A DNA stretch of 64,000 nt from Chryseobacterium shigense (GTDB lineage: Bacteria > Bacteroidota > Bacteroidia > Flavobacteriales > Weeksellaceae): NCBI RefSeq assembly GCF_014207845.1, contig NZ_JACHLC010000006.1, positions 62,001-126,000 of the forward strand. Direction: 5' to 3'. The notes beneath the pieces are model-generated. The model searched no databases. It was not told the DNA's origin and worked only from the letters and a program-made list of their open reading frames with translations. Below are positions 35,631 through 39,402 of this stretch, piece by piece (the stretch's first letter is position 1; each line of letters opens with the position of its first letter). Both the position numbers and the translations under genes were made by a program.

Positions 35631-38333
35631 ATGCAGATTTCAGAAAAGTACAATCCACAGGAGACTGAACAGAAATGGTACAATTTCTGGATGGAGAACA
35701 AATACTTCCATTCAGAGCCTAATGACAAACCACCATATACTGTGGTAATTCCTCCGCCAAACGTAACGGGGATATTACACATGGGACATATGCTGAACAA
35801 TACCATTCAAGATGTTCTCGTCCGCCGTGCAAGAATGCAGGGCTTTAATGCCTGCTGGATTCCGGGCACAGACCACGCTTCAATTGCCACTGAAGCCAAA
35901 GTTGTTGCTAAACTGAAATCCGAAGGAGTCAATAAATCAGATATTACCCGTGAAGAATTTTTAAAGCATGCCTGGGAATGGACCGATAAATATGGAGGAA
36001 CCATTCTTGAGCAGCTGAAAAAATTAGGTTGTTCATGTGATTGGGACAGAACCCGCTTTACAATGGAAGAAAAACTTTCCCAGCAGGTAATCAAAAGTTT
36101 CGTAGATCTATACAATAAAGGATTGATCTACAGAGGCTACAGAATGGTAAATTGGGATCCCGAAGCAAAGACCAATATTTCTGATGAAGAAGTAATCTTT
36201 AAAGAACAGAACGGAAAACTGTACTTCCTTAAATATAAAATTGAAGGTTCGGAAGAATTCCTTTCCGTAGCTACCACACGTCCCGAGACTATTTTCGGGG
36301 ATACAGCGGTATGTATCAATCCTAATGACGAAAGATATGCCCATCTTAAAGGTAAAAATGTAATTGTACCGATTGTAGACAGGGTAATTCCTATTATAGA
36401 AGATGAATATGTAGATATAGAATTCGGAACCGGGGCATTGAAAATTACACCGGCCCACGATACCAATGACTATGAGCTAGGACAGAAACATCAGTTGAAA
36501 ATGATCGATGCTTTGGATGATGACGGAAACCTGAATGAACACGGCTTGCACTACGCAGGTAAAAATAGGTTTGACGTAAGAAAACAGATCGCGAAAGAAC
36601 TGGAAGAAAAAGATCTTTTGTTAAAAGCAGAAGATTATGTGAACAAAGTAGGAACTTCAGAAAGAACAGGAGCCGTTATTGAACCTAAAGTTTCTGTTCA
36701 GTGGTTTTTAAAAATGTCTGAAATTGCCAAGCCGGCTTTGGATGTGGTAATGGATGATGAGGTGAAATTCTATCCTGAGAAGTTTAAAAATACCTACAAG
36801 CACTGGATGGAAAACATCCGCGACTGGAATATTTCCCGCCAGCTTTGGTGGGGACAGCAGATCCCTGCATTCTACTACGGAGATGGTGAAAATGATTTTG
36901 TAGTTGCGGAAAATATCGAAGATGCTTTGGCTCTGGCTAAAGAAAAAACAGGAAATTCGAGTCTCGGAATATCTGATCTGAAACAGGACGAAGATGCTCT
37001 TGATACATGGTTTTCATCATGGTTATGGCCAATATCTGTATTCGATGGTCTGCTTGATCCTGAAAATAAAGATATCAATTATTACTATCCAACTTCCGAC
37101 CTTGTTACGGGTCCGGATATTATTTTCTTCTGGGTAGCCAGAATGATTATGGCCGGATTGGAATACAGAAAAGAAGTACCGTTCAAAAACGTTTATTTTA
37201 CGGGGATTGTAAGGGATAAGATTGGCAGAAAAATGTCCAAATCGCTTGGGAATTCACCAGATCCATTAGATTTAATAGAACGTTATGGAGCTGATGCTGT
37301 AAGAGTGGGAATTATGATGAGTTCAGCAGCTGGAAATGATTTAAAATTCGATTCTGAGCAAATTGACGAAGAAGGAAATGTTTTAACTGAAAAGCAGATA
37401 AAACAAAGGATGGAAGAAGGGAAAGATGCTATTTATACTTCTCCGCTTTGTGACCTGGGAAGAAATTTCGGAACAAAAATTTGGAATGCTTTCCGATTGA
37501 TCAATATGTGGAGTCATGAAGATAAGCTGGTTAATTCAACCGAAACTCAAACAATAGAATGGTTTGAAAATCAATTGAATAAATCGATTTCTGAAATTAA
37601 TGACCAATTCGGGAAATTCAGAATTTCAGATGCTTTACATTTAATTCAAAAATTAGTTAAAGACGATTTTTGCGGTTGGTACCTGGAAGCAATCAAACCA
37701 AATTATGGAGAAGGAATTTCTAAAGAAGTTTATCAAAAAACAATATATTTCTTTGAAGAGCTAATGAAATTGCTCCATCCGTTCATGCCTTTCTTAACAG
37801 AGGAACTATGGCAGACTATTTCGGAAAGAAACACAGAAGATGCATTAATTATTGCCCAGCAGAAAAAAGAAGGAGCCTTTAATGAAGAGATCATTAAAAA
37901 CTTTGAAACTGCAGGAGAATTGATCTCAGGAGTTAGAAATTACCGTCAGACGAAAGGAATTTCTCCAAAAGAAACTGTTGAGATCTACACAAATGCTTCA
38001 GAATTTGCAAACGAATCCGTAATTAAAAAACTGGCAAATGTTTCCGAAATTCATTTCGGAGCAAAAACGGATAAGCCAAGCTTTACATTCCTTGTTGGTG
38101 CAACTGAAGTTTCTATTCCTTTAAGTGAAAACCTGGATTTGGGTGAAGAGAAAAAGAAAACTGAAGAAGAGCTAAAATATTTAAAAGGATTTTTAACTTC
38201 TGTAGATAAAAAACTTTCCAATGAAAAGTTTGTAGCGAATGCCAAACCCGAAGTTGTAGAAGTAGAGCGCCAGAAACAAAAAGATGCTCAGGATAAAATT
38301 GCTATTTTGGAAGAGAAACTGAAAAGTTTGTAA
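35631..38333 (+). CDS. valS: Valyl-tRNA synthetase
   Basis: This 900-residue class I synthetase charges tRNA-Val. The HIGH signature is HMGH (residues 50-53, GILHMGHM) and KMSKS is at 534-538 (GRKMSKSLGN). The editing (CP1) domain includes FLSVATTRPETIFGDTAVCI, a zinc-free type. The C-terminus is the coiled-coil tRNA arm (EEKKKTEEELKYLKGFL to the end). The next gene is the repeat-bracketed GIY-YIG gene, and no clear terminator separates them. Confidence 0.96.
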   Translation: MQISEKYNPQETEQKWYNFWMENKYFHSEPNDKPPYTVVIPPPNVTGILHMGHMLNNTIQDVLVRRARMQGFNACWIPGTDHASIATEAKVVAKLKSEGVNKSDITREEFLKHAWEWTDKYGGTILEQLKKLGCSCDWDRTRFTMEEKLSQQVIKSFVDLYNKGLIYRGYRMVNWDPEAKTNISDEEVIFKEQNGKLYFLKYKIEGSEEFLSVATTRPETIFGDTAVCINPNDERYAHLKGKNVIVPIVDRVIPIIEDEYVDIEFGTGALKITPAHDTNDYELGQKHQLKMIDALDDDGNLNEHGLHYAGKNRFDVRKQIAKELEEKDLLLKAEDYVNKVGTSERTGAVIEPKVSVQWFLKMSEIAKPALDVVMDDEVKFYPEKFKNTYKHWMENIRDWNISRQLWWGQQIPAFYYGDGENDFVVAENIEDALALAKEKTGNSSLGISDLKQDEDALDTWFSSWLWPISVFDGLLDPENKDINYYYPTSDLVTGPDIIFFWVARMIMAGLEYRKEVPFKNVYFTGIVRDKIGRKMSKSLGNSPDPLDLIERYGADAVRVGIMMSSAAGNDLKFDSEQIDEEGNVLTEKQIKQRMEEGKDAIYTSPLCDLGRNFGTKIWNAFRLINMWSHEDKLVNSTETQTIEWFENQLNKSISEINDQFGKFRISDALHLIQKLVKDDFCGWYLEAIKPNYGEGISKEVYQKTIYFFEELMKLLHPFMPFLTEELWQTISERNTEDALIIAQQKKEGAFNEEIIKNFETAGELISGVRNYRQTKGISPKETVEIYTNASEFANESVIKKLANVSEIHFGAKTDKPSFTFLVGATEVSIPLSENLDLGEEKKKTEEELKYLKGFLTSVDKKLSNEKFVANAKPEVVEVERQKQKDAQDKIAILEEKLKSL

Positions 38334-38364
38334 ATATAAAAGATAGATAGTAAGTTTGTCGGAA

Positions 38365-38390
38365 TGTCAGGCTGAGCGGAGTCGAAGCCT
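38365..38390. repeat. Left arm of 26-bp inverted repeat (REP-like)
   Basis: TGTCAGGCTGAGCGGAGTCG and six more bases are perfectly complementary to 38719-38744. Each arm is itself an imperfect hairpin (AGGCT...AGCCT). It lies 32 nt after the valS stop and 11 nt before the GIY-YIG start. It is much more GC-rich than its surroundings. Confidence 0.75.
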
Positions 38391-38401
38391 GTCATCTTAA
38401 A

Positions 38402-38752
38402 ATGAAACAATACTTTGTATATATTTTAAAATGTTCCGATGGCTCTTACTATACAGGAGTTACTCATAATATTGAGACCAGATTGGCTCAGCATCAGTCT
38501 GGAAGATTTCCTGAAAGTTATACTCACAAAAGAAGACCGGTTGAACTAGTCTTCTTTTGTGAATTTAATGATGTTACTCAGGCTATTTTATTTGAAAATC
38601 AAGTAAAAGGATGGAGCCGAAAGAAAAAAGAAGCCATTATCAATGATAATTGGGAAAAGCTGAAAGAATTATCTGTTTGCCAAAATAAAAGTCACTCGGA
38701 TAATTTTGAAAAAAAAGAAGGCTTCGACTCCGCTCAGCCTGACACAGTTTAA
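38402..38752 (+). CDS. GIY-YIG nuclease, URI/UPF0213 type
   Basis: This 116-residue single-domain nuclease has the GIY-YIG elements: YFVYILKC (residues 4-11), YYTGVT (16-21), Arg27 and the catalytic Glu65 (LFENQVKGW). The core ends near residue 90, and the tail EKKEGFDSAQPDTV is encoded by the right arm of the inverted repeat that brackets the gene, so the stop lies just beyond the repeat. This suggests gene and repeats move or spread as one unit. The family cleaves DNA and includes homing and repair nucleases; its role here is unknown. Confidence 0.85.
   Translation: MKQYFVYILKCSDGSYYTGVTHNIETRLAQHQSGRFPESYTHKRRPVELVFFCEFNDVTQAILFENQVKGWSRKKKEAIINDNWEKLKELSVCQNKSHSDNFEKKEGFDSAQPDTV
38719..38744. 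repeat. Right arm of 26-bp inverted repeat (inside GIY-YIG gene)
   Basis: This arm is perfectly complementary to 38365-38390 and codes in frame for EGFDSAQPDT, the C-terminus of the GIY-YIG protein. The distance between arms is 328 nt. Confidence 0.75.
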
Positions 38753-38766
38753 ACAACAAAAATTAA

Positions 38767-39402
38767 ATGACACACATAGAAAACATAAAAAAACTATTCT
38801 CAAAAAACTTTGTAGAAAGCCCTTTATTAGAGAGCTTTGAAGTTGGGAAACTCTACCTTTCAAGCGGAAAGCTCGTTGCCTGTGATCCCCTCATCACCAA
38901 CGATATGCTGCCGTTTTCTACAGAATTTCCGAAAGGGAATTTTTCTGTTTTACTGCATAAAGAAAGAGAAAGCAACTGTGTAGCCTATGCAGAGGTTATT
39001 TTCAGTAATACAGCAATTGCCGAATGGAAAATGGCTGTTACAGAAGGTCAGGACGTAAAAGACCTTGCTGAAGAAGAAGTTTTCGGGTACCCTGTGGAAA
39101 GCGGGATGGGATGCCTTATGGATGCAGATACCCAGAACAGCCTTAACGAACTTGAAAAAAGATTATACCATAGTAAAGGAGTAGATTTCATGGGAATATA
39201 TGAAGAATTTTTTCATGATTATTTCTTTGATGAGAAAGGAGCTATAGATCAGTATGCTTTTCTAAAGCCGGCCGGAGATCATCCCGGTACTATTTTTGCC
39301 TTTGAAACAGGATACGGTGAAGGCTTTTATGCCAGCTATATTGCTTATGATAAAGATCACAAACCTGTGAAGATAATTACTGAATTTATTGAAATAAGTT
39401 AA
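38767..39402 (+). CDS. DUF4241 protein
   Basis: This 211-residue protein fits DUF4241: LYLSSGKLVACDPLI near the start, the central VESGMGCLMDADTQ, and the C-terminal PAGDHPGTIFAFETGYGEGFYASYIAYD. The family often occurs with polymorphic toxins as a possible immunity or accessory domain, but no toxin lies beside it. It has no signal peptide. It follows the GIY-YIG gene after 14 nt. Confidence 0.82.
   Translation: MTHIENIKKLFSKNFVESPLLESFEVGKLYLSSGKLVACDPLITNDMLPFSTEFPKGNFSVLLHKERESNCVAYAEVIFSNTAIAEWKMAVTEGQDVKDLAEEEVFGYPVESGMGCLMDADTQNSLNELEKRLYHSKGVDFMGIYEEFFHDYFFDEKGAIDQYAFLKPAGDHPGTIFAFETGYGEGFYASYIAYDKDHKPVKIITEFIEIS

Follow-up and report, generated by a model that had tools for sequence, protein, structure and literature searches.

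A small gene for a GIY-YIG nuclease that is bracketed by a perfect inverted repeat raises the question of how enzyme and repeat belong together, and whether the gene and its flanking arms spread as a unit. The gene studied here lies in a 64,000-nucleotide stretch of the Chryseobacterium shigense genome (64 kb, hereafter the window). As judged from sequence comparisons, the locus is probably that of a vertically inherited, putatively repeat-specific nuclease located between two copies of its cognate REP.

Architecture of the nuclease locus

The nuclease gene is located between valS and a DUF4241 gene; the features of the locus, in window coordinates, are as follows:

35631–38333, + strand: valS, valyl-tRNA synthetase; upstream neighbour and conserved flank of the site
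38365–38390, + strand: left REP copy, a 26-nt perfect inverted repeat, defined by the consensus and covariation of its copies
38365–38368, 38369–38373 with 38386–38390, and 38374–38385, + strand: tag TGTC, stem, and loop GAGCGGAGTCGA of the left REP copy, respectively
38402–38752, + strand: GIY-YIG nuclease gene, 116 aa (PF01541, E 1.6e-17)
38524–38562, + strand: long hairpin within the nuclease coding sequence, located by the core-search script, with compensatory changes at some outer pairs
38719–38744, − strand: right REP copy, inverted, encoding the C-terminal tail EGFDSAQPDT in frame
38767–39402, + strand: DUF4241 gene (Pfam DUF4241, E 1.6e-44); downstream neighbour and conserved flank of the site

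The two arms are complementary over 26/26 nucleotides and lie 328 nt apart, with the open reading frame between them; the start codon of the nuclease is 11 nt past the end of the left REP. The original prediction, which described a perfect 26-bp inverted repeat bracketing the gene, a right arm read in frame as the C-terminus of the protein, and arms that are GC-rich in AT-rich DNA (16/26 G or C, in a window of 37% GC), is correct on each of these points. Within the window the 26-mer is found, at up to three mismatches, at the two arms alone (0.00 expected from shuffled sequence), and exact inverted 18-mer pairs no more than 2 kb apart are confined to the nuclease locus and three short local palindromes. 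The product of the upstream gene matches Pfam tRNA-synt_1 (E 3.4e-129) and Val_tRNA-synt_C (E 2.8e-10). A PADLOC search for defence genes gave no match to the nuclease, and an Rfam search over positions 38250–38850 returned one microRNA-model match, far under the cut-off, which covers the internal hairpin.

A dispersed REP makes up both arms

Counting of the 26-mer, the check suggested with the original prediction, revealed that the sequence is not unique to the locus: in the window's own genome (G000; 4.15 Mb) it is exact at four places, namely the two arms, C1:543995 and C1:1683297. A 20-nt core is present at 31 places at no more than three mismatches (reversed control, 0), identifying the arms as copies of a dispersed repeat; 22 of these places form 11 inverted pairs, spaced 58–88 nt start to start. 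The TGTC tags lie inside in all 11 dimers, and outside in the pair around the nuclease gene. The consensus of 30 copies from this genome is TGTCA-TGCT-GAGCGGAGTCGA-AGCA-T, in which the tag (frequencies T.97, G.90, T 1.0, C 1.0) is unpaired.

Covariation was analysed in 37 copies (33 distinct), 30 from G000 and seven from relatives, with a match in coding sequence (L035) and the 31st G000 place dropped; the copies were gathered by core similarity, so wider variants fall outside the set. In this alignment 98.0% of stem cells are paired, compared with 86.4% after shuffling, and there are 16 two-sided changes, compared with 3.8; none of 500 shuffles attained either observed value. The loop is near-constant across the 37 copies. 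The architecture is a 5-bp stem with one inner G-C pair and a 12-nt loop region, with no CCA tail; in single-stranded DNA, tandem G.A pairing might arise between the constant GA dinucleotides on either side of the loop. Dispersal, inverted pairing and covariation all conform to a REP, and the arm is one: an unpaired TGTC tag followed by a short covarying stem. The original prediction took each arm to be a small imperfect hairpin, for which folding energy alone is weak evidence (left arm, −6.1 kcal/mol, z −1.75; right arm, −2.9 kcal/mol, z 0.05); it is the covariation among copies that backs the stem.

There is also a longer REP variant, whose loop includes two additional small hairpins; it was observed as GAGCACAGATGAAAATCTGCGAACAAATGTTCACGAAGCC in G025 (L046) and also in G005, G112, G138, G139, G149 and G177. 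Arms of the long and short forms may mix at one site.

The nuclease protein

The PF01541 match and the predicted fold place the protein in the GIY-YIG superfamily. Y17 and R27 are invariant, and E65 nearly so, among 22 aligned sequences; we take these three residues to be the catalytic positions. The closest solved structures are the UPF0213 proteins 1zg2 and 1ywl, followed by SLX1 and UvrC, both structure-specific nucleases. The predicted fold is confident to approximately residue 90, except around residues 31–40; the repeat-coded tail likely lies outside the protein core, since its pLDDT is about 50. The window protein has no NCBIfam match, and matches among the 22 aligned sequences are scattered and weak.

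The hairpin within the coding sequence (38524–38562) comprises about 14 bp and an inner 3 bp, and its core was found by script in 28/31 nuclease copies. Two-sided changes occupy 15 cells, compared with 6.3 after shuffling (0/500 shuffles; 18 distinct sequences), and the number of pairs that carry them (three) is not above chance (282/500 shuffles). Synonymous recoding of the G000 nuclease gene gave an equally strong fold in 35/2000 trials. This hairpin is possibly a second recognition or control element.

Most related nucleases examined adjoin their own versions of the repeat

The association between nuclease and repeat was analysed at 80 loci of relatives, the best 80 of 552 by similarity, of which 78 have enough flanking sequence. 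Exact inverted repeats of at least 13 nt span the gene at 39/78 loci, compared with 1/441 shifted windows from the same loci, and those of at least 15 nt at 32/78, compared with 0/441. A REP core of the GAGC/GAGG...TCGA class is located within 250 nt of the gene at 76/80 loci, compared with 8/298 control windows, with densities of 3.49 and 0.238 per kb, respectively; the core patterns are partly derived from such loci themselves. Of 29 homologues from the window's relatives, 5 lack any listed core within 250 nt.

The core differs by nuclease clade, with GNAG, TTG, CTG and GCTC loops, and further clades carry TGTCATTCTGAA, GTCATTGCGAGG or TGTCATTCCG hairpins; one genus contains several nuclease clades, each with different REPs. 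Mapping of REP type onto the nuclease tree requires 13 changes, compared with a shuffled mean of 26.4 (0/200 as low), on a tree of 109 rows, 100 of them labelled and 27 of those labels taken from one flank only, that is weakly resolved (13/104 branches starred; the broken copy L061 left out). REP type follows nuclease clade. Because most of the related enzymes examined adjoin their own version of the repeat, the nuclease is a good candidate for the missing partner of these REPs, and we consider it likely to be dedicated to them.

These controls bear on the most conventional explanation, namely that the gene encodes an ordinary repair nuclease of the YhbQ/UPF0213 kind and that the repeats are transcription terminators or have arisen by chance. 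The UPF0213/YhbQ/YazA proteins have the same domain and a similar size and provide the best solved-structure matches, and repeat-free distant homologues exist. Neither a repair role nor chance accounts for the inverted-repeat and REP-core frequencies relative to controls, or for a tag and stem conserved among dispersed copies, and no long T-run follows the arms in the sequence around the nuclease locus; we therefore regard this explanation as highly improbable.

Two genomes contain near-identical small GIY-YIG genes, of another clade, arrayed in tandem (L080, G019 C1:134000–136500; L094, G013 C1:3683500–3686500). Both arrays adjoin tRNA genes, mostly tRNA-Asp, and seem to represent a different GIY-YIG lineage that has expanded in linkage with tRNA genes.

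History of the site between valS and the DUF4241 gene

Throughout the 35 same-genus relatives in which the region was read, valS adjoins the DUF4241 gene directly or with a short insert between them. Full-length alignments of the unit at this site were obtained in 32 of 173 genomes of the genus, broken genes included, and the gene is absent or decayed there in many others. Comparison of seven genomes gave pairwise identities of 79–89% for the nuclease and 78–87% for the flanks; since the two diverge to similar degrees, the nuclease gene is old at this site and vertically inherited.

The arms have been kept with the gene. The original prediction would have failed had the 26-mer been unique to this locus, or had relatives carried the gene here with a normal tail and no repeats, and neither is so. 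Of 23 genomes with an intact gene, 22 entered the arm survey (the site in G155 was not read), and both arms are present in 22/22, three right arms and one left arm being mutated. By pattern, the left arm is short at 16 sites, long at five and a visible variant at one (G034), and the right arm is short at 18, long at one and mutated at three. The protein ends in an FDSAQPD-like tail in 20/22; G149 reads the repeat in another frame, and in G025 the arm is enlarged.

Many sites without the gene carry a hairpin in which the outer arm sequence recurs. In the sister species G177 and G137, whose flanking genes share 97.3% identity, the outer left flanks match fully and there is a single-base difference in the outer right flank. 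The gene-free sequence of the pair, TGTCAGGCTGAGCACAGATTTTCTATCTCCGCTCAGCCTGACA, retains the outer portion of each arm, with a piece of the left arm in inverted orientation between them, and the gene-free state is therefore best explained by a deletion within the palindrome. At 6 of 28 hairpin sites the outer left flank is 88–100% like that of the nearest filled site, which fits deletions in place as read from sequence. At the other 22 it is 53–76% (one value of 10%, in G034, is an artefact of the script's cut); because these outer-flank scores are lower, these sites may represent either a separate, older allele or recombinational exchange, the direction being unproved. A tree covering 79 of the 173 genomes requires at least 16 state changes for hairpin-only sites, a rough count as the states were labelled by crude patterns and some intact genes fall in class D. 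The nuclease gene has undergone repeated loss, after which the palindrome tip sometimes persists as a hairpin.

This history speaks against part of the original prediction. A gene unit that is self-spreading at this site is rejected on its single genomic location, the concordant divergence of gene and flanks in the seven genomes, and the deletion scars; the multicopy element is the REP, not the gene. Such a proposal, in which the nuclease and its two REPs constitute a transposon-like unit inserting whole, draws on the alternation of gene-bearing and gene-free sites on the tree and on the hairpin sharing outer arm sequence at many gene-free sites. It does not sit with the presence of the unit at one place only in G000 and with close homologues that are mostly one per genome in a search of the genus, nor with the agreement of gene and flank divergence or the G177/G137 deletion, and we give it very little credence.

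In four genomes the gap without the nuclease was seen, by eye, to hold unrelated palindromes (L138 in G008, L139 in G026, L142 in G009 and L152 in G018). For this reason, the gap between valS and the DUF4241 gene may be one that collects hairpins, perhaps terminators.

REP number and nuclease presence

With genome classes assigned by hand, genomes with an intact gene contain a median of 7 REP cores (n = 23, own arms not counted), those without a relative at E 1e-20 a median of 1 (n = 89; p 1.9e-4 versus intact), those with a broken gene 2.5 (n = 12), and those having only another GIY-YIG relative 3 (n = 49). After correction for ancestry the trend persists without reaching significance (18 independent pairs, median p 0.07–0.25 depending on threshold). 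A clean presence/absence rule linking nuclease and REP number was rejected, since it has exceptions and the link is significant only before this correction.

Seven of 16 REP-rich genomes picked have no relative at E 1e-3. One of the seven, G104, contains 52 REP copies and a single GIY-YIG match, located in a 599-aa frame and, by its length, UvrC. In view of these exceptions, either the REPs outlast the nuclease or another factor can sustain them.

An alternative that takes account of these observations is that the nuclease acts on the REPs without spreading them, as a site-specific single-strand nuclease whose sites tune transformation, recombination or repair, while the REPs spread by other means. 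The host-like behaviour of the gene (a fixed site, divergence like that of its flanks and frequent loss), the persistence of REPs in its absence and a fold nearest to UPF0213, SLX1 and UvrC are all consistent with such a role. By itself it leaves unexplained the joint change of REP type and nuclease clade, and the higher copy numbers with an intact gene (the latter link being that which loses significance on ancestry correction). We judge this alternative rather unlikely.

RAYT transposases as candidate partners

REPs could also be moved in trans by RAYT transposases in the same cell, the nuclease being a bystander beside which REPs landed. Candidate enzymes are available: there are two PF01797 matches in G000, and at least one in 39 of 59 genomes searched. 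The REP core is nevertheless absent from all six PF01797 loci read (both G000 loci and four others), and the repeats that flank some of these loci are other palindromes, which differ from it. Moreover, G019 lacks any PF01797 match at E 0.001 yet contains the core at 32 places at no more than two mismatches, together with several small GIY-YIG genes, and the 76/80 association belongs to the nuclease. A RAYT as partner of the REP is thus not supported, and mobilisation in trans appears very unlikely. The gene beside the REP here encodes a GIY-YIG enzyme, where a RAYT/REPtron would have a PF01797 HUH tyrosine transposase.

Relation to known systems

A close parallel is Ssn, a family of site-specific single-stranded nucleases of the GIY-YIG superfamily, reportedly described in Nat Commun in 2025. 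In Neisseria these enzymes are said to cut single-stranded DNA at a repeat, NTS, present in hundreds of copies, the dispersed sites reportedly tuning natural transformation, recombination or repair; thousands of homologues, many with a repeat of their own, are said to exist. On that description, the two systems have in common a small GIY-YIG protein and a cognate short repeat with many genomic copies, also beside the gene. The window system differs in being from Bacteroidota, in its TGTC-tagged, long-loop REP and in its inverted pairs with tags inside. The window enzyme is best read as a putative repeat-specific nuclease of this kind. If Ssn is as reported, the kind of enzyme is already known; the REP differs from the described CGTC families.

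According to Di Nocera et al. 2013 (PMC3733652), REPs mostly are either GTAG-tagged, and linked to RAYTs, or CGTC-tagged (often TGTC); the latter occur in five phyla, Bacteroidetes included, were stated there to have no dedicated enzyme, and comprise, as CGTC-1, the dRS3 repeats of Neisseria. Relative to the description given there, the window REP shares the short palindrome, the unpaired CGTC/TGTC tag, an A:T at the stem base and inverted dimers, and tyrosine transposase genes are not flanked by the repeat in either case. It differs in its stem (5 bp, compared with 8–9 bp), its loop (12 nt, compared with 4–5 nt), the lack of a CCA tail (CCA-like tail in CGTC-tagged REPs) and its tag-inside dimers (tag-outside predominant), as well as in adjoining a GIY-YIG nuclease, no dedicated enzyme being found for CGTC-tagged REPs in PMC3733652. 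The window REP therefore has the unpaired tag of the CGTC superfamily and, on account of its stem, loop, tail and dimer orientation, belongs in none of the four CGTC families.

RAYT genes, according to Quentin et al. 2018 (PMC6006769), are usually present as one full-length copy per REP type, often REP-flanked; they are predominantly vertical at the subgenus level, with horizontal transfer followed by loss also argued. A gene flanked by REPs, and REPs that are dispersed and in inverted pairs, are features common to these REPtrons and the window system, the differences being a GIY-YIG enzyme and TGTC tag here and a HUH tyrosine enzyme and GTAG tag there. A search of open-licence PMC papers gave no paper joining GIY-YIG to REPs among the matches listed, and six repeat words had no match in such papers.

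Proposed role of the nuclease

Recognition of the REP by the GIY-YIG enzyme, cleavage in single strands and a role in REP spread are proposed here. The enzyme would recognise the tagged hairpin in single-stranded DNA, as on the lagging strand, during repair or in incoming DNA, and would nick at or near the TGTC tag; such nicks may enable the copying or movement of REPs and REP pairs, or may mark them for processing. The nuclease gene would then occupy the position taken, in the case of GTAG-tagged REPs, by the RAYT tyrosine transposase. Mobilisation of the REPs driven by the nuclease is a proposal that we make tentatively, rating it a little below an even chance. The original prediction of a REP-mobilising system without a transposase is supported in part, namely in that the arms are copies of a dispersed REP, that the nuclease family is linked to such repeats well beyond this species and that the core is absent at the two PF01797 genes of G000; its self-spreading gene unit has to be given up. 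More tentative still is the extension to the family as a whole, in which GIY-YIG nucleases of several phyla might be dedicated mobilisers of CGTC/TGTC-tagged REPs, independent of RAYTs, acting on single-stranded tagged hairpins and co-evolving with them.

If Ssn is as reported, the additions made here are the connection with tagged REPs and their pairs, the contrast with RAYTs and the history of one site. The results point to one candidate enzyme family for CGTC-tagged REPs in Bacteroidota and some alphaproteobacteria. They also identify a genus in which the nuclease is by turns present, decayed or lost among close species, so that the question of REP maintenance is directly testable. Clade-specific repeats predict the target of each nuclease, which would be useful for finding sequence-specific single-strand cutters.

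Homologues outside Bacteroidota

Among 61 matching records of a plasmid collection, 18 were read, hand-chosen for spread. Repeats of at least 16 nt lie across the gene in four of these (Methylobacterium, 17 and 28 nt; Sphingomonas, 16 nt; Sphingobium, 31 nt), and no repeat in control windows from the plasmid records is longer than 12. None of at least 16 nt is present in the other 14 plasmid-collection homologues (reach 7 to 12); these 14 include E. coli YhbQ and B. subtilis YazA (8 each), which, unlike the window nuclease, are without a flanking repeat. The CGTC-tagged Sphingobium pair of 31 nt recurs at 16 places on its plasmid at no more than three mismatches (reversed control, 0), and from its sequence looks like a plain CGTC-tagged REP. 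In Sphingomonas, the core CTGAGCGAAGTCGAAG, which it has in common with Sphingobium, lies across the nuclease gene. On plasmid p1 of Planktothrix agardhii (L329), a GIY-YIG gene with no flanking repeat at its locus has a gene for a type IIL restriction enzyme on one side and drmA (DISARM) on the other.
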